Below are positions 6,936-21,087 of a stretch of 25,060 nucleotides of DNA, piece by piece. Below the pieces are notes generated by a model, which worked only from the letters and a program-made list of their open reading frames with translations, did no database searches and was not told the DNA's origin. Origin of the DNA: a virus. The translations under genes and the position numbers were made by a program. Within the stretch, counting starts at the first letter, position 1; the number at the start of each line of letters is the position of its first letter. The stretch covers positions 1 to 25,060 of the IMG/VR virus record IMGVR_UViG_3300042937_000138; one strand, written 5' to 3'.

Positions 6936-9900
6936 GTGTCTACAAAAAGATTTATCGCCAAACATGGTTTGGATAATAATAATCAGACCATAACTAATGT
7001 AGCAAATCCAATAAATGGTTCGGATGCAGTAAACAAAAACGTATCGGATGTCATTTATGATAGAGCTAATACCGCGTATATTTATGCATCTTCTACAGCT
7101 AACAATGCATATAATACAGCTAATAATGCATGGAATCAGGCAAATTCTGCATACAATAAGGCAAATTCGGTTTATACCGAAACTAGTAAATTAGCCAATA
7201 GTGCATATGACCGAGCTAATACAGCATATTCACAAGCTAACGATTCATATATTTTCGCATCTTCTACAGCTAATAATGCATACATAACTGCAAACAATGC
7301 ATGGAATGCTTCGAATACCGCCAATACATGGCTCCAAGCAAACGATGGTATAACATTAATTGCTGCTAAAGATTATGCAAATTCTAATGATTCTATAACA
7401 TTAGCATCGGCAAAAGCTAATGACTATAATACATTAATAGCGGCATATGCTAACGACAGTTCAACACTAGCATCGGCAAAATTTTATACAGATTCTGCAA
7501 ATAATTGGCTACAGGCCAACGATGTTATAACATTAGCTATCGCAAAAAATTATGCTAATTTAATATATAGCTATACATCATCTATAGCTAATGATGCATA
7601 TAATACTGCAAACTCCGCATGGGCTGATGCTAATGTTGGAATTTCCATTGCACAAGCTGCTTATGATGCTGCTAATAATGTTGCACCGCAAATTGCTCCA
7701 GCACACCAAAAAGCAAATGCTGCATATGCAACTGCTAATAATGCATGGGCTGGAGCCAATGCTTCGTATACCTTTGCATCATCTACAGCAAATAATGCTT
7801 ATATAACAGCAAATAATGCTTGGGCAGGTGCTAATGTGTCTCATCAAAAAGCTAATGCGGCATATAGTACTGCGAACTCTGCATGGGCTGGAGCCAATGC
7901 TTCGTATACCTTTGCATCATCTACAGCAAATAACGCATATAATACAGCAAATAATGCATATAATACAGCAAATAATGCATGGGCTGGTGCTAATGCTTCG
8001 TATACATTCGCATCAAGCACAGCGAACAATGCCTATATAACAGCTAATAATGCTTGGTTTGCGGCAAATGCGTCTCATCAAAAAGCTAATGCAGCATATA
8101 GTACTGCAAACTCTGCATGGGCAACTGCTAATGCTTCGTATACATTCGCATCGTCAACTGCTAATAATGCTTATATAACAGCTAATAATGCATGGGCTGG
8201 AGCCAATAATTCGTATACCTTCGCATCAAGTACTGCAAATAACGCATATAATACAGCAAATAATGCTTGGGCAACTGCAAATTCCAAATTAAATTCTTCC
8301 GGAGGAATAATATCAGGTAGTTTATCTGTTACCGGAAATGTACAAATAGATGGAACTTTGTCTGTCTCTGGTAATGTATTTTCGATACAGGCGAATAACT
8401 TATCTATTACAGATAATATGATTTATCTTAATAGAGGAGCAAATACAGCTAATCCGGATATTGGTATTACTGCTGGTTATAATGATGGAATATATCATCA
8501 TACTGGATTTTTCAGAGACGCTACCGATGGTATATGGAAAGTATTCGACAATTATGCACCAGAACCGGACGAATCAGTATATATTGATACAAGTAATAAT
8601 ACATTCAGAATAGCAAGTTTCCAAGCCAACACCATTTATGGTAACACGTTCATAACTTCGGCTATTAATGGAATTGCACCATTTGTAGTATCATCGACAA
8701 CACTAGTTTCAAATTTAAATGTAGATTATCTAGATAATAATCATGGGAGTTATTATTCTGGATTGAGCAACACCGCCTTTGATCGAGCAAATACTGCATA
8801 TTCACAAGCTAACGCTTCGTATACATTTGCATCAAGTACTGCTAATAATGCTTATAATACTGCGAACTCTGCTTGGGCAGGAGCTAATGCGTCTCATCAA
8901 AAAGCTAATGCGGCATATAGTACTGCGAACTCTGCTTGGGCTGGAGCTAATGCTTCATATACATTTGCATCAAGTACTGCTAATAATGCATACAATACTG
9001 CAAACTCTGCATGGGCTGGAGCTAATGCTTCATATACATTTGCATCAAGTACTGCTAATAATGCTTATATAACAGCTAATAATGCTTGGGCAGGTGCTAA
9101 TGCGTCTCATCAAAAAGCTAATGCGGCATATAGTACTGCGAACTCTGCTTGGGCTGGAGCTAATGCTTCATATACATTTGCATCAAGTACTGCTAATAAT
9201 GCTTATATAACAGCAAATAATGCATGGGCTGCTGCAAACACAGCAAATACCTACAGAGGAAATGCCACAAATTTATCTTCTGGTACAATTCCGGGCGATA
9301 GAGGTGTTACCGCTGGTTCCACAACTCCATCGTTTATTGAATATAATGGAACTACGAAAACTGCTGGTCAGTTTGATGGTGGTTCGACTGCACCAACAAA
9401 TACTAATAGATTAAATTACGATGGTAATTTATATGCCACGACATTCTTTGGAGCAGGAACCGGATTAACTGGAACTGCGTCAAATTTAACTGCCAATGTT
9501 GCAACATACGAAGTAATAAACAATACTACTTCTGGAATATACTATCCACAGTTGATTTCTGATACTAATGGAAATCTTGCTGGATTTGCTAACAACGCAC
9601 TTGCTTTTGACGCTGGAACTGGGAGTCTTGGGATTGGAATGGTCCCACTCAGCGGTCCTCTTTCTGGAGGGGCATTACAGGTTTATGCATCTTCGACTAA
9701 AAATTATGGCACTTTTGATTGCGAAACTGCCGGGTTAGGGTATCTAACTTTTAGTTCAGGCAGCAATATTTACGGATACATCGGACCAGACGTTAATAGT
9801 ATTGGAGAAATGGGAGTTGCTTCGATAGGCGATTTGATTTTCGCAACAGATTCTGTAGAACGTCTTCGGATCAACTCATCGGGTAATGTGGGAATTGGGA

Positions 9901-12587
9901 CCACTCCGAGTGCTTGGAATTCATCATATAAAGCGGTCGAAATCGGAAATGGTTCTATAGACGCAAGTATTTCCGGTTCTCTTGTTCGAGTAGCCTCTAA
10001 TGCGTATTTAAACGATAGTGGTCAATTTATCTATAGAACGACAGGAACGGCGTCTGCATATACACAAAACTTTGGGAGTCACCAATTTTTTACCGTAGTA
10101 TCTGGTACTGCTGGTGCGGTGATTTCTCCTACACTAGCAATGACGCTGACATTGGCTGGGAATTTGGGGATTGGAGTTAGCTCCCCATCTTACAAACTAG
10201 ACGTTAACGGAACCGCCAAAGCAAATACATTAGCACTAACTGCAAATACCGCTTCTACTAATACTACAACAGGAACATTAATTGTAACTGGTGGCGCTGG
10301 AGTTTCTGGCAATGTTTATGCCACAACATTTTTTGGAGCAGGAACCGGATTAACCGGAACAGCATCAAGTTTGTCTATCGGAGGAAGCTCTGGATCGGTT
10401 GGAAATGCAGTAACGTTTAACAACGGCGGATCTGGTGCAGCTTCTGGAACAACCTTTAACGGTTCTACTGCCGTGACTATTTCGCATAATAGCATAGGAG
10501 CACTTGCATTAGCGGGTGGGACATTAACTGGACAACTAACATCTACCCTTGCATGGAATGCTGCTACGGGCAGTGGTCAAATTTATATAAATGGTGCAAC
10601 GGGCAATAGAATTGATTTTAATACCAACGGAGTTGGTGCTCCAGCATTTACTACTAGAAGTGCAGGTACGAAAATCGTTTTATATCCCAACGTAGGAGCA
10701 TCATCAGTAGATTTTGCATTAGGTATCGAAAATAATAATTTGTGGTTTAGTACCGTAGATAATACAAATGGTGGATTCAAGTGGTATCACGGCACAACTA
10801 ACACCATGAGTCTCCTTGCAACTGGTATACTTAGTGTTGTAACAGGATTTCGTATCAACAATGCAGCAACGTCTGGTCAATATCTCCGAGGTAATGGTAC
10901 TAATTTCGTTTCTTCTGCAATTCAAGCAGCAGATGTACCAACTCTGAATCAGAATACTACGGGAAGTGCGGGTTCTGTCGCGTGGTCTGGCATTACCAGT
11001 AAACCAACCACAGTATCCGGGTATGGTATTACAAACGCCTTAGTCCGTGGTGGGGCTATTGGCAATATAGATTTTAACGCCCAGCGAACGCTTGCCTCTG
11101 GCATTTACAGTGTAAATGATGCACCTACTAACGGTCCCCCTGTCAGTGCGTATAGTAACTTCATCCAGATGTACGAACGAGGGGATACAGCAGCACAGCT
11201 TGTTATCGAGTACTCCACTGGCCGGATGTACTCAAGAGGTATCCAGACGGCTATACCTACTTACTCTCCTTGGCGAACGCAAATTGATGATGGTAACTAC
11301 ACTTCTTATGCAATGCCAGCAGGGTCTTCTGCAACAAACAGCGTTGATGTAAGAGCGCCAATATTCTACGATTATAATGATACCGGATATTATATAAATG
11401 CAGCAAGCACATCAAGCACAAATCATATAATAGCAAGCAGAATAAAATTAACTAGAAATTATGGGCATAGTGTTTTTGGTGTATACGATTCAACAAGATA
11501 CCAAGGCGTTTGGTCTATGGGAGAAAGTTGGTACTTGCCGGATGACGGAACAAATACCGGCAACCTATACGGGTTGGCTTGGTCGCACCCAAACGCTGGA
11601 GGAGTTGCAGGAAACTTAAATGATCACGGATTATTAGTTTTGGTTAATGGGGGTTTTAGAGCGTCTGTTACTGGGAGTATTAGATGCGTTACCGATATGA
11701 GATCTCCGTTATTCTATGATTATAATAATACTGCATATTATGTAGATCCAAACGGAACTTCTCAATGTAGTCGTATAAATTGCGACAATATGTTTTATGG
11801 AAACGGAAATTTTTCATATTTTACCGGATTTTATGATACTAATGATACTGCATATTTTGTAGATCCAAATTCTGTATCACATTTAAATGATTGTAGAGCT
11901 AATGTATTCTATTTAAGAGGCGACACAAACAATTATTTTACTCCCAATGCTCTTTTTATAAGAGGCGCTTCTCCTACTATATATTTCAGAGATACTGATG
12001 CCAATTGTGCAATGCTTCATAATAACAGCAACCTTTTGTATATTTTGAGAGGAGGAAATGATACAACAACTTGGACTACGGTAGGTAGCGGTTCATGGCC
12101 CATGACTCTAAATTTAACTAATAATGATGTAACATGGGGCGGAAATATTTCAGCAATATATAACGTTACTGCATATGCTTCGGATAAAAGATTAAAAGAA
12201 AACATCAAAGAAATTCCAAATGCTATAGAAAAGATTAAAAAAATAAGAGGTGTTACCTTTGATTGGAACGATTTAGCAGAGGAAGTTGGATTTACTCCAG
12301 AAAACAAATATAACGATATTGGCGTAATTGCACAAGAAATCGAAGAAGTTTTACCACAAGTAATTACTTTAGCACCATTTGATCGTTGGACGCCGGAACC
12401 AGAAAAAGAATATTCAGAAGAAGAATTATCAAGACTAGGAAAATCTAAATCTGGTGAAGATTATAAAACAGTTCAATATGATCGAATCGTTCCCTTATTA
12501 ATACAAGGAATAAAAGAACAACAAAATCAAATTGATAAACAACAAGAAACAATAAATAAATTAAAATTATTATTAAATTTGGAGTAA
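6936..12587 (+). CDS. Giant tail fibre protein with S74 intramolecular chaperone
   Basis: An 1883-residue fibre starting at GTG 6936, with GAGGAT about nine bases upstream. In order: attachment region (1-40); Ala/Asn-rich heptad arrays (about 40-450 and 615-770) with the ANxAY / ANxAW pattern of trimeric coiled-coil shafts; a beta knob between them (about 451-572); module B (776-852); GIG-type repeats (LGIGMVPLSG, VGIGTTPSAWN, LGIGVSSPSYKLDVNG, about 890-1095); module A (about 1222-1298); a pyocin-knob-like domain (about 1372-1452, GIYSVNDAPTNGP ... IEYSTGRMYSRG ... SPWR); three YDxNxTxYxxxP-type repeats (from about 1477, 1593 and 1632); and the S74 chaperone. The catalytic pair is Ser1749 and Lys1754 in SDKRLK, followed by GVIAQEIEEVLPQV and a terminal coiled coil. 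Predicted product: a self-processed trimeric receptor-binding fibre. Confidence 0.88.
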   Translation: MSTKRFIAKHGLDNNNQTITNVANPINGSDAVNKNVSDVIYDRANTAYIYASSTANNAYNTANNAWNQANSAYNKANSVYTETSKLANSAYDRANTAYSQANDSYIFASSTANNAYITANNAWNASNTANTWLQANDGITLIAAKDYANSNDSITLASAKANDYNTLIAAYANDSSTLASAKFYTDSANNWLQANDVITLAIAKNYANLIYSYTSSIANDAYNTANSAWADANVGISIAQAAYDAANNVAPQIAPAHQKANAAYATANNAWAGANASYTFASSTANNAYITANNAWAGANVSHQKANAAYSTANSAWAGANASYTFASSTANNAYNTANNAYNTANNAWAGANASYTFASSTANNAYITANNAWFAANASHQKANAAYSTANSAWATANASYTFASSTANNAYITANNAWAGANNSYTFASSTANNAYNTANNAWATANSKLNSSGGIISGSLSVTGNVQIDGTLSVSGNVFSIQANNLSITDNMIYLNRGANTANPDIGITAGYNDGIYHHTGFFRDATDGIWKVFDNYAPEPDESVYIDTSNNTFRIASFQANTIYGNTFITSAINGIAPFVVSSTTLVSNLNVDYLDNNHGSYYSGLSNTAFDRANTAYSQANASYTFASSTANNAYNTANSAWAGANASHQKANAAYSTANSAWAGANASYTFASSTANNAYNTANSAWAGANASYTFASSTANNAYITANNAWAGANASHQKANAAYSTANSAWAGANASYTFASSTANNAYITANNAWAAANTANTYRGNATNLSSGTIPGDRGVTAGSTTPSFIEYNGTTKTAGQFDGGSTAPTNTNRLNYDGNLYATTFFGAGTGLTGTASNLTANVATYEVINNTTSGIYYPQLISDTNGNLAGFANNALAFDAGTGSLGIGMVPLSGPLSGGALQVYASSTKNYGTFDCETAGLGYLTFSSGSNIYGYIGPDVNSIGEMGVASIGDLIFATDSVERLRINSSGNVGIGTTPSAWNSSYKAVEIGNGSIDASISGSLVRVASNAYLNDSGQFIYRTTGTASAYTQNFGSHQFFTVVSGTAGAVISPTLAMTLTLAGNLGIGVSSPSYKLDVNGTAKANTLALTANTASTNTTTGTLIVTGGAGVSGNVYATTFFGAGTGLTGTASSLSIGGSSGSVGNAVTFNNGGSGAASGTTFNGSTAVTISHNSIGALALAGGTLTGQLTSTLAWNAATGSGQIYINGATGNRIDFNTNGVGAPAFTTRSAGTKIVLYPNVGASSVDFALGIENNNLWFSTVDNTNGGFKWYHGTTNTMSLLATGILSVVTGFRINNAATSGQYLRGNGTNFVSSAIQAADVPTLNQNTTGSAGSVAWSGITSKPTTVSGYGITNALVRGGAIGNIDFNAQRTLASGIYSVNDAPTNGPPVSAYSNFIQMYERGDTAAQLVIEYSTGRMYSRGIQTAIPTYSPWRTQIDDGNYTSYAMPAGSSATNSVDVRAPIFYDYNDTGYYINAASTSSTNHIIASRIKLTRNYGHSVFGVYDSTRYQGVWSMGESWYLPDDGTNTGNLYGLAWSHPNAGGVAGNLNDHGLLVLVNGGFRASVTGSIRCVTDMRSPLFYDYNNTAYYVDPNGTSQCSRINCDNMFYGNGNFSYFTGFYDTNDTAYFVDPNSVSHLNDCRANVFYLRGDTNNYFTPNALFIRGASPTIYFRDTDANCAMLHNNSNLLYILRGGNDTTTWTTVGSGSWPMTLNLTNNDVTWGGNISAIYNVTAYASDKRLKENIKEIPNAIEKIKKIRGVTFDWNDLAEEVGFTPENKYNDIGVIAQEIEEVLPQVITLAPFDRWTPEPEKEYSEEELSRLGKSKSGEDYKTVQYDRIVPLLIQGIKEQQNQIDKQQETINKLKLLLNLE
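7050..8285 (+). repeat. First Ala/Asn heptad repeat array in giant fibre gene
   Basis: About 410 residues built from heptads of the form A-N-x-A-[YW]-x-x, mixed with 25-residue cassettes (ASYTFASSTAN followed by two heptads) and 21-residue cassettes (ASHQKAN followed by two heptads). A stretch at about 7340-7560 instead uses the hendecad A-N-D-x-x-T-L repeat seen in the fibre at the left edge. The DNA is correspondingly repetitive and likely to expand or contract by recombination. Confidence 0.85.
8779..9240 (+). repeat. Second Ala/Asn heptad repeat array in giant fibre gene
   Basis: The same 25- and 21-residue cassettes alternate here. A 119-base segment at 8871-8989 recurs at 9084-9202 with a single visible difference (8882 versus 9095), giving a 213-base (71-residue, 25+21+25) period. 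The copies are far more alike than cassettes elsewhere in the gene, so this duplication looks recent. Confidence 0.85.
9262..9491 (+). repeat. Fibre module B, copy 2 (paralogue of 1161-1390)
   Basis: Encodes NATNLSSGTIPGDRG through DGGSTAPTN to FFGAGTGLTGTAS. It aligns gaplessly over 230 bases with 1161-1390. The tail of the module (ATTFFGAGTGLTGTAS) also recurs at about 10319-10367 in this same gene. Confidence 0.8.
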
Positions 12588-17548: not shown

Positions 17549-18295
17549 ATGTCAACAGTATCATCAAGAGAAGAATTAAAAGATTATTGTCTAAGAAGAC
17601 TCGGTTTTCCTGTCATAGAAATTAATATTTCCGATGAACAGATTGAAGATCGTATATCTGACGCATTTCAATTTTATTCCGATTATCATTACGATGCTGT
17701 AATTAAAACATACTTAAAACATACTGTAACATCAACGGATATTGAAAATAGATATATTTCAGTAGACGATTCTATTACTGGCGTGACAAGAATTCTTCCT
17801 CTCAATAATCTTCTTTCTAAATCTTATATGTGGGATATTAGATATCAATTGATTCTTAATAATCTTTGGGATCTTTCTTCCACTTCAATGTTGTCATACA
17901 CAATAGCTATGCAACATATAAGATCTTTGGAATTATTATTTGTCGGAGAAATTCCTATTAGATTTCAAAGACATCAGAATAGAGTATATGCTGATATGGG
18001 TTGGGGAACTTCCCAATGTCCAGAAGGAACAGAATTAGTATTTGAATGTTATAAATTAATCGATCCAGAAATTTTTAATGATGTTTATAATGATCGTTGG
18101 ATAAAAGAATATGCTACTGCATTAATTAAACGTCAATGGGGAGAGAATCTTCGTAAATTCCAAGGGATAACTCTTCCGGGTGGTATCAATTTAAATGGTG
18201 ATAATATCTATCAAGATGCTCTTCAACAAATAAAACAACTCGAAGCGGAAATGCAAGATAAGTACGAACTCCCGTGCGAGCTAATGATGGGGTAA
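17549..18295 (+). CDS. gp13: Neck protein, T4 gp13-like
   Basis: A 248-residue homologue of the T4 neck protein gp13, which with gp14 closes the portal after DNA packaging and forms the site for tail joining. Supporting features: N-terminal helix EELKDYCLRRLGFPVIEINI, the following DEQIEDRISDAFQFYSDYHYDA, then SVDDSITGVTRILPLNN, and a C-terminal helical part with WIKEYATALIKRQWGENLRKFQG and a terminal acidic helix. All are characteristic of the family in marine T4-type phages; it is shorter than T4 gp13 (309 aa). The order 13-(endonuclease)-14-15-16-17-18 confirms it. AAGG at 17532 is the likely ribosome-binding site. No late octamer is visible in the 53-base AT-rich gap upstream. Confidence 0.92.
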   Translation: MSTVSSREELKDYCLRRLGFPVIEINISDEQIEDRISDAFQFYSDYHYDAVIKTYLKHTVTSTDIENRYISVDDSITGVTRILPLNNLLSKSYMWDIRYQLILNNLWDLSSTSMLSYTIAMQHIRSLELLFVGEIPIRFQRHQNRVYADMGWGTSQCPEGTELVFECYKLIDPEIFNDVYNDRWIKEYATALIKRQWGENLRKFQGITLPGGINLNGDNIYQDALQQIKQLEAEMQDKYELPCELMMG

Positions 18296-18378: not shown

Positions 18379-19167
18379 ATGAATATTTATACCATATATA
18401 AAGCAAAAAATGTAATTAACGGAAAAGTCTACATTGGTTTTACCCAAAACTTTGATAAAAGGAAAAAAGACCATATAAAAAATGTCACAGAAAAACTAAA
18501 TAATAAACATTTTTCTGCATTTTATGAAGCAATTAGAAAATATGGAATTAATAATTTTTCGTGGGAAGTTCTATATCAATCTAAATATAGAGAACATACA
18601 AAAAATGTAATGGAAAATTATTTCATCCTCGAATATAAATCATATTGTGGGTTTATAGATTGCAAGGGTTACAATTTAACTCTGGGCGGTGAAGGATCAC
18701 ATGGAAGAAAATGTGGGCGCTCGACCAAAAATAAAATAAGAAAAAAAGCTCTCGAAAGATTTAAAGATGAAAAATTTAAATCCAAACATTCCGAAATAAT
18801 GAAACAATGGTACGAAAACCTAACCGAAGAACAGAAAGAAGAAACTTCCAAAAAAATTTCCGAATCATTAATAGGAAACCAATATGCTTTAGGAATGACT
18901 TATTCGCACACAGAAGAAGCAAAAGAAAAAATCTCAAAAAGTAGATTAGGGAAAAAACCTTCAAAAGAAACTGTGGAAAAACAAAAACAATCCAGAACAG
19001 GGAAAGGAATGGGAGAAAGAAATTCTATGGCCGATCCAGAAAATCGAAAAAAAGTTTCCGAATCCAAAATAGGAAGAAAAAAATACATAAATATTGAATT
19101 AAACAAATTTAAATATTGTTTTCCGGGAACAGAGCCGGAAGGATATAAATTAATATCGGACATATAA
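18379..19167 (+). CDS. GIY-YIG homing endonuclease (Seg-like, free-standing)
   Basis: A 262-residue mobile-element nuclease. The GIY-YIG domain (about 1-100) shows the core as T5-I6-Y7 and Y18-I19-G20, the catalytic Arg28 in FDKRKKDH and the metal-binding Glu79 in NVMENYFI, ending in the LTLGGEGSHG turn. The C-terminal half is basic and carries NUMOD3-type DNA-binding motifs (SHTEEAKEKISKSRLGKKPS, then ETVEKQKQSRTGKGMG and NRKKVSESKIGRKK). T4 Seg enzymes have this architecture and cut at or beside their own insertion site to spread. It lies inside the otherwise contiguous gp13-gp14 pair, with a strong AGGAG eight bases before ATG, and stops four bases before gp14. Catalytic residues appear intact, so it is probably active. 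Confidence 0.9.
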   Translation: MNIYTIYKAKNVINGKVYIGFTQNFDKRKKDHIKNVTEKLNNKHFSAFYEAIRKYGINNFSWEVLYQSKYREHTKNVMENYFILEYKSYCGFIDCKGYNLTLGGEGSHGRKCGRSTKNKIRKKALERFKDEKFKSKHSEIMKQWYENLTEEQKEETSKKISESLIGNQYALGMTYSHTEEAKEKISKSRLGKKPSKETVEKQKQSRTGKGMGERNSMADPENRKKVSESKIGRKKYINIELNKFKYCFPGTEPEGYKLISDI

Positions 19168-19171
19168 AATA

Positions 19172-20050
19172 ATGGCTACTTCAGCATTTTTTAATAATTA
19201 CAAATCCAAGCCAGAACAAAATCTTGTTGAGGATTTAATTCACGAAGCAGTCAAAATCATGGGATTTGATTGTTATTATTTACCAAATTCAAATGACCAA
19301 GCAAGGGATTTAGTATTCTCAGATGATCCTCTTAAAAAATTTGAGGCAGCATATCCTCTAGAAGTCTATCTTTCAAATTCTGTAGATCCTGGAATGTCCG
19401 GAGAATTTTTTTCCAAATTTGGCTTAGAAATTAAAAACTCTATAAGAATTCAAATGCCAAGAAGAGCATTTGCTAAAAGAGTTCCTCAAGATAAATTTCA
19501 AAGACCAAGAGAAGGAGATTTAGTTTATATTCCATTTTTATCGGGAACCGGAGAACTTTATGAAATTAAATTTGTAAACGATGCTACGGATTTCTTTACT
19601 CTGGGTAGATCTTCTCCATATTATTGGGAACTTGAATTAGAACTATTCAAATATTCAAACGATGAAATCAATACTGGTATCGAAGATATTGATATCATAA
19701 ATGAAATGGATGCATATTCTATAGAATATATAGTTTCCTCCGGAACTGGTAATTATACAATCAATGAGATTGCTTTTCAAGGAGCTAATGTTTTATCATC
19801 CACGGCAAAAGGAACAGTACACGGTTGGAATTATCCAGCAAATACTTTAACGCTTACAAATATTTCTGGAGTATTTTCTAATACAGAAACTATTATAGGA
19901 AACTCTAGTAATGCTAGATACATATTACAAACATACGATCCTTTGAATTATTCGCAAAAAGAAAATTCTTGGGATAATAAAGTAATAGAAACTCAGGTAG
20001 ATAATTTTATTGATACCTCTGAATCTAATCCATTTGGAGGATTATTTTGA
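19172..20050 (+). CDS. gp14: Neck protein, T4 gp14-like
   Basis: A 292-residue homologue of neck protein gp14, partner of gp13 in the collar between head and tail. Family features: LVEDLIHEAVKIMGFDCYYL near residues 20-40, AAYPLEVYLSN, EFFSKFGLEI, then REGDLVYIPF and LFEIKFV-type strands followed by FFTLGRSSPYYWELELELFKYSNDEI, and the terminal ESNPFGGLF. These parallel T4 gp14 (256 aa). It is longer because of an extra beta module at about 190-253 (EIAFQGANVLSSTAKGTVHG ... ISGVFSNTETIIG) that also occurs in gp15. Its ATG is only four bases after the endonuclease stop, with no strong ribosome-binding site, so its translation may now depend on the inserted gene. Its TGA overlaps the gp15 TTG start. 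Confidence 0.93.
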   Translation: MATSAFFNNYKSKPEQNLVEDLIHEAVKIMGFDCYYLPNSNDQARDLVFSDDPLKKFEAAYPLEVYLSNSVDPGMSGEFFSKFGLEIKNSIRIQMPRRAFAKRVPQDKFQRPREGDLVYIPFLSGTGELYEIKFVNDATDFFTLGRSSPYYWELELELFKYSNDEINTGIEDIDIINEMDAYSIEYIVSSGTGNYTINEIAFQGANVLSSTAKGTVHGWNYPANTLTLTNISGVFSNTETIIGNSSNARYILQTYDPLNYSQKENSWDNKVIETQVDNFIDTSESNPFGGLF

Positions 20051-21087
20051 CAACATTAAGTAATTATTATAAAACTATTAGAAAAATTAATATTGCATTT
20101 GCTTCATTATTTAATAATATCGTTTTAATAAGACAAAATCCTAATAATACAGAAAATCAAAGATTTATTGTTCCCATAGAATATGGTGATGGCGAAAAAT
20201 ATGTAAAACGTTTAAGAGGAGATCCGGAATTACAGAAAAAAATTCAGATAGCACTTCCTAGAATGTCGTATGAAATGGTAGGATTTAATTATGATGCTTC
20301 TAGAAAATTAAATACTAATAACAAAAATTTTGCTTCTAGTCCGTCTGGTGGAGCAAATGCTCTTTCAATGTATAATCCAGTACCGTATGATTTTGGATTT
20401 TCATTGACAATTTATACTAGAAATGTCGAAGACGGAAATCAAATAATCGAACAAATAATTCCTTATTTTACTCCGGATTACTCAATGAAATTAAATCTTG
20501 TTCCGGAAATGGGAATATCCAAATCAGTTCCGATTGTTCTTAACGATGTTCAACAAATAATAGAATCTGATGGAGACTTCAATTCAGAAGTAAGAACAGT
20601 AATTTGGTCATTAAAATTTACAGTAAAAGCATTTATATTCGGTGCAATAAAAGATACTAAACTAATCGCAAATACAACTTTAAATATTTCAACCTCTACA
20701 GGAGTTTCTTCAAATTTCGATGGAGAAGGAGTTTGTTGTACAGGAGAAATCTCGAAATCATATACTGTACTTCCTAATGGATATGGAGATTATGGTAATA
20801 AAGAATTAGTATATCAAGGACAATCTTTGGATTATGCCTACGCGACAGGTAAAGTTCAATTGTGGGATGCAAACGCAAATACTATAATTATATCGGATGT
20901 TTGTGGTGATTTTAAATTAAATCAACCTATAATCGGTTCCGAAACACTATCTATACATATCCCAATTGCTCCATCGGTAAATACTGTAATAGCAATGAGA
21001 ATAACAACAACCGCAGATCCCACAAACGCCAACGCAAATTCTTATTGGACAGCAAATACGATAGTAACAGAATACCCAAATACATAA
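20047..21087 (+). CDS. gp15: Tail completion/sheath stabiliser protein, T4 gp15-like
   Basis: A 346-residue homologue of gp15, the hexameric ring that caps the tail tube and sheath and joins the tail to the neck. It starts at TTG 20047, overlapping the gp14 stop (TTGA), which gives MTTLSNYYKTIRKINIAFAS and implies translational coupling. Family features: FASLFNNIVLIRQN, RFIVPIEYGDGEKYVKRLRG, IALPRMSYEMVGFNYDASRK, YNPVPYDFGFSLTIYTRNVE, QIIEQIIPYFTPDYSMKLNL and VIWSLKFTVKAFIFG. T4 gp15 has 272 residues; the surplus comes from a C-terminal beta module (about 232-301, ELVYQGQSLDYAYATGKVQL) related to the one in gp14, plus a Thr/Asn-rich tail. Confidence 0.92.
   Translation: MTTLSNYYKTIRKINIAFASLFNNIVLIRQNPNNTENQRFIVPIEYGDGEKYVKRLRGDPELQKKIQIALPRMSYEMVGFNYDASRKLNTNNKNFASSPSGGANALSMYNPVPYDFGFSLTIYTRNVEDGNQIIEQIIPYFTPDYSMKLNLVPEMGISKSVPIVLNDVQQIIESDGDFNSEVRTVIWSLKFTVKAFIFGAIKDTKLIANTTLNISTSTGVSSNFDGEGVCCTGEISKSYTVLPNGYGDYGNKELVYQGQSLDYAYATGKVQLWDANANTIIISDVCGDFKLNQPIIGSETLSIHIPIAPSVNTVIAMRITTTADPTNANANSYWTANTIVTEYPNT

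Follow-up and report, generated by a model that had tools for sequence, protein, structure and literature searches.

The neck protein gp14 and the tail completion protein gp15 encoded in this stretch of viral DNA carry homologous copies of one module family, a wider domain that is reused over the tail and neck and has neither a curated Pfam entry nor a solved structure. It is most likely a mobile all-beta module, inserted in many virion proteins of the Kyanoviridae, that acts as an exposed decoration of the neck-tail junction; decoration is its most likely role, and a dedicated interlock between the two proteins is a minority possibility. These results outline a promiscuous virion domain, missing from Pfam, for an abundant aquatic phage family.

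The window, i.e. the whole stretch of DNA that was analysed, covers 25,060 bases (positions 1 to 25,060 of virus record IMGVR_UViG_3300042937_000138). Its right half has the T4-type gene order gp13, gp14, gp15, gp16, gp17, with the small (gp16) and large (gp17) terminase genes after gp15, and the large terminase shares about 50% identity with those of Synechococcus phages, e.g. S-H38 and S-SM1. The gp14 gene is flanked by a gp13-like gene (17549-18295, PHROG Ad2 2.5e-42) and the gp15 gene, with an ORF for a GIY-YIG homing endonuclease (18379-19167) intervening after gp13. In the relatives, gp13 and gp14 are separated by about 0 to about 860 bases, and in one by 1,465. Only some of the window's relatives have a relative of the GIY-YIG ORF, a patchy occurrence that is as expected for a mobile intergenic endonuclease.

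The gp14-like neck or head closure (Hc2) protein has 292 amino acids and is encoded on the plus strand, like all the features described below, at 19172..20050. It belongs to the T4 type, with a match to Pfam T4_neck-protein (2.1e-23, 83.5 bits against a gathering cut-off of 25), a PHROG match of 3.4e-62, a match of 1.8e-18 to T4 gp14 in the PDB and T4 gp14 (9mkb) as the best Foldseek match. The Pfam match spans the T4-like core, residues 6-183 (19187..19720). The module follows at about residues 183-256 (19718..19939), and alignments of relatives mark off a C-terminal tail (19940..20047) with the last residues SESNPFGGLF. The SExNPfG terminus is kept throughout the relatives, and T4 gp14 has a faint resemblance to it (ESSPFDN). 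The gp15-like tail completion protein or sheath stabiliser has 346 amino acids (20047..21087) and is likewise of the T4 type, matching Pfam T4-gp15_tss (1.5e-61, 208 bits, cut-off again 25), PHROG (2.9e-64) and the T4 gp15 structures 4huh and 3j2m. Its start codon is TTG, in a 4-base overlap with the gp14 stop (20047-20050). Here the T4-like core given by the Pfam span comprises residues 7-220 (20065..20706), the module about residues 235-305 (20749..20961), and a final segment residues 306-346 (20962..21084), for which further strands are predicted and which was set by alignment. Both modules were delimited by sequence and profile comparisons together with predicted strands. Thus the gp14 copy is located within the C-terminal arm, between core and conserved tail, and the gp15 copy after the core.

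T4 gp14 (PF11649, PDB 9mkb, 9lu4) resembles the window's protein in the core residues 6-183 and in the order of the genes around it, but it has about 50 unrelated residues in the C-terminal arm instead of the module, and about 25 more residues at the N-terminus. T4 gp15 (PF16724, PDB 4huh, 3j2m, 9mkb), which is alike in core residues 7-220, has 272 amino acids and also no module, and a search of the T4 genome for the module found no copy. The sequence-only reading had attributed much of the excess length over the T4 proteins to the module. This is the case for gp15, where the module makes up about 71 of the 74 extra residues, and only in part for gp14, where the net excess is just 36 residues owing to the additional N-terminal and the other post-core residues of T4 gp14.

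That reading had also proposed, from a shared residue pattern, that the same extra module is present in both proteins. The pattern fits exactly in gp14 residues 199-243 and gp15 residues 253-297, and homology is borne out by several comparisons. BLASTP aligns the two segments without a gap, with 19 of 65 residues identical (29%) and 39 of 65 positive (E 7e-11 as a single comparison). Their BLOSUM62 local score is 94, while shuffled segments score 25.1 on average (sd 4.7, maximum 60). When the gp14 module was searched against the window record, the gp15 module was returned at 20767-20949 (E 6e-8). Scans of viral contigs (18 and 80 loci) gave sequences long enough for use, 47 of gp14 and 56 of gp15, and in these the profile of one module finds the other copy in both directions and in all members: the gp15-module profile matches 47/47 related gp14, and the gp14-module profile matches 56/56 related gp15, the latter being a biased count of module possession because the search for gp15 loci relied in part on patterns taken from the module itself. 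Compared profile to profile, the two module families match at 99.6% (E 2.2e-24, 66 columns). Each of the segments has a low charge and a high content of N, T and G, and phage fibre proteins are often similar in composition, yet a chance or compositional likeness of beta-rich, Gly/Asn/Thr-rich segments is exceedingly improbable and was rejected, given the gapless alignment, the profile matches in every family member, the fact that 0 of 20,000 composition-preserving shuffles reach the observed score, and a next best segment elsewhere in this fibre-rich window that scores only 48.

AlphaFold2 models of gp14 and gp15, built separately from family alignments, predict the same order of strands in the two modules. 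The mean pLDDT of the whole models is moderate, 65 for gp14 and 71 for gp15, with about 74-89 in the module blocks. In a register fixed by sequence alone, 62 of 68 positions have the same strand prediction in both modules. For a fixed stretch of 62 residues the sequence register gives 58 strand agreements, and the other slides tried all give 50 or fewer. For the cores, the nearest PDB structures in Foldseek searches of the whole models are T4 gp14 and gp15; over the PDB and viral predicted structures together these searches return mainly T4-like cores or long alignments of low quality, and no fold class for the module. A PDB sequence search with the module found no solved relative, 28 module sequences matched no Pfam family significantly (the best matches were isolated and unrelated), and in the papers covered by a literature search neither a neck structure of a kyanovirus nor a description of the module was found.

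Ig-like and similar domains, e.g. Hoc, decorate phage virion proteins. The module is likewise small, all-beta and added to otherwise conserved virion proteins, its all-beta class being predicted by the models only. However, it has no sequence match to any Ig-like Pfam family.

A decoration common to the two ring proteins only, as first supposed, proves too narrow. We sampled 19 annotated Kyanoviridae records around the neck (L100-L103, L105, L106 and L138-L150), seven chosen via a module match and 12 via whole gp14 or gp15. The iterated module profile matches gp14 in 18 of the 19 records, including all 12 of those chosen through whole proteins. The exception is HTVC008M, which has the module in a baseplate-region protein instead of gp14. 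Further copies are carried by gp7, gp8, VrlC and a baseplate wedge protein in P-SSM4, and S-CREM1 has the same set (gp7, gp8, VrlC and a further wedge-region protein). Among the window's sister contigs with a gp8 gene, there is a module match inside the gp8 frame in 4/4; on the long contig of the window itself (G001) copies are found in gp14 and gp15 only, and no gp8 was found there. A module specific to the neck is therefore rejected. The module-bearing gp8 proteins of the relatives are gp8-type baseplate wedge proteins by PHROGs and by Pfam Phage-Gp8 (PF09215; L134), and their alignment shows the module cleanly inserted in a loop between segments common to T4 gp8. T4 gp8 itself has no trace of the module, and an origin there was rejected.

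In the marine Kyanoviridae (S-PM2, Syn30, P-SSM4, Bellamy, S-SM2) the gp14 protein has the same module ahead of its C-terminal tail, with the motif GE-x-VTGG/TSG where the window's has E-x-VYQG, and some of them add a second module type, 'GGSGYT'. In the gp8 baseplate wedge proteins of the window's relatives and of cyanophages, the same module lies within a T4-like core; these differ in being located at the baseplate, not the neck, and in having an additional 'GGSGY...GDGSGA' module.

The gp15 copy has a different distribution. The module profile gave no match in gp15 of the annotated Kyanoviridae, including the 18 records with the module in gp14. The suggestion that the modules are peculiar to this phage group survives for the copy in gp15, which was seen only in relatives of the window. 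In S-PM2, Syn1, S-SSM5, Syn33 and S-CREM1 the C-terminal region of gp15 is short, with no extension, and in P-SSM4, Syn19, S-SM2, Bellamy and P-RSM6 it has a different small module, V-x-RG-x-x-x-x-x-x-x-x-H. This variability points to the gp15 C-terminus as a site where modules come and go, and the presence of the module in marine gp14 with none in gp15 means that the gp14 copy is independent of a gp15 partner. The other marine module, more fully V.RG..GT....H..G..V, occupies the site of the window's shared module (L151:43723-44754, L140, L149, L142). In a module tree of 80 rows and 77 columns, in which many forks are unsupported, the gp14, gp15, gp8 and baseplate copies of the window group fall together and are set apart from the marine gp14 modules by a 99/99 branch. 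Forcing all gp14 modules into one clade was rejected at the borderline (AU p 0.046, for a group named after the tree was seen), and we therefore claim no direction of transfer between gp14 and gp15.

Within both families the module diverges faster than the core: the mean pairwise identity in gp14 is 0.51 for the module and 0.69 for the core, and in gp15 it is 0.44 and 0.71, respectively. The conserved module positions are mostly Gly, aromatic or hydrophobic, which suits a constraint of fold and not a catalytic site.

We propose that a single mobile domain, all-beta and some 65-75 residues long, was put into many virion proteins of the Kyanoviridae and their relatives, either in loops or at the ends of conserved T4-like cores. 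At the neck it would be an add-on, probably exposed at the surface, that lends bulk and decoration to the exterior of the neck-tail junction, and we infer six copies in each ring, provided that the rings are hexameric as in T4, and decoration over a specific lock. The gp14 copy would be old and nearly family-wide, and the gp15 copy would have been gained at a site where other cyanophages have nothing or a different small module. Homology of the copies, their absence from T4, the copies at the baseplate, the faster divergence and the common strand pattern all support this reading. That said, the structural support comes from predicted models that are moderate overall (pLDDT 65 and 71), faster divergence is also possible at co-evolving interfaces, and both copies are in or beside segments that make contact in T4, which would fit a role in the joint equally well.

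An interlocking neck-tail joint, also put forward in the sequence-only reading, would have the gp14 and gp15 modules (6 + 6 copies) pack together and strengthen the connection of head and tail. In T4, gp14 residues 178-256 are disordered before tail joining and then make extensive contacts with gp15 residues 203-245 (PMC12270204). By alignment, this contact arm corresponds to residues from about 163 onward in the window's gp14, and the gp14 module is inside it. The stretch of the window's gp15 that matches the T4 contact segment ends inside the gp15 module, which extends further. As the T4 contact segments align in or beside both modules, the two copies are, by analogy, likely to be close together at the neck-tail seam, and in the window's relatives both proteins bear one. 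The idea of an interlock is nevertheless weakened, and we regard it as rather unlikely, since the Kyanoviridae that carry the module in gp14 have a gp15 that is unextended or has a different module, and since the same module is found in baseplate proteins, far from the neck. It is also unlikely, to a similar degree or a little more so, that within the window group gp15 gained a copy of the module already carried by its binding partner gp14 and that a matched double ring of the two has formed at the seam. If the copies do touch, they would clearly exemplify a joint that arose as one domain spread into both partners.

Less likely again is a docking role, in which the modules would bind other virion parts, such as collar, whisker or tail fibres, or ligands on the host surface or in the environment. 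The tail does have the module at either end, on wedge proteins of the baseplate and on the neck, the site of fibre attachment in T4, but the module has no prominent conserved surface motif and matches no known binding domain. Furthermore, the fibre-binding neck protein of T4 is gp13, to which fibritin binds (PMC12270204), and gp13 gave no module match here.

The module also bears on annotation. In these phages, proteins of both the neck and the baseplate draw their decorations from a common set of small modules, and sequence matches between such proteins are therefore not to be taken as orthology. The module is probably behind at least one misnaming of this sort: a baseplate protein of the Pelagibacter phage HTVC008M, I899_gp055 (L153:11436-14486), is annotated as 'head closure Hc2', a name that it probably received through the shared module. 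Its neighbours are baseplate wedge genes, its Pfam match is to Baseplate_wedge (8e-13), and the true gp14 of this phage is I899_gp074.

A second small module (GGSGYT..P.I.I...GDGSGA.A) is common to some cyanophage gp14 (L142, L149, L106, L148) and baseplate gp8 proteins (L134, L135, L137, L151). Elsewhere in the window, large fibre-like proteins are encoded at 2-2230 and 6936-12587, with long tandem repeats (STLVASYANDSVTLASARANDH; ANNAYNTANNAWAGANASYTFASST), and their C-termini, judged by eye, resemble a self-cleaving tail-spike chaperone.
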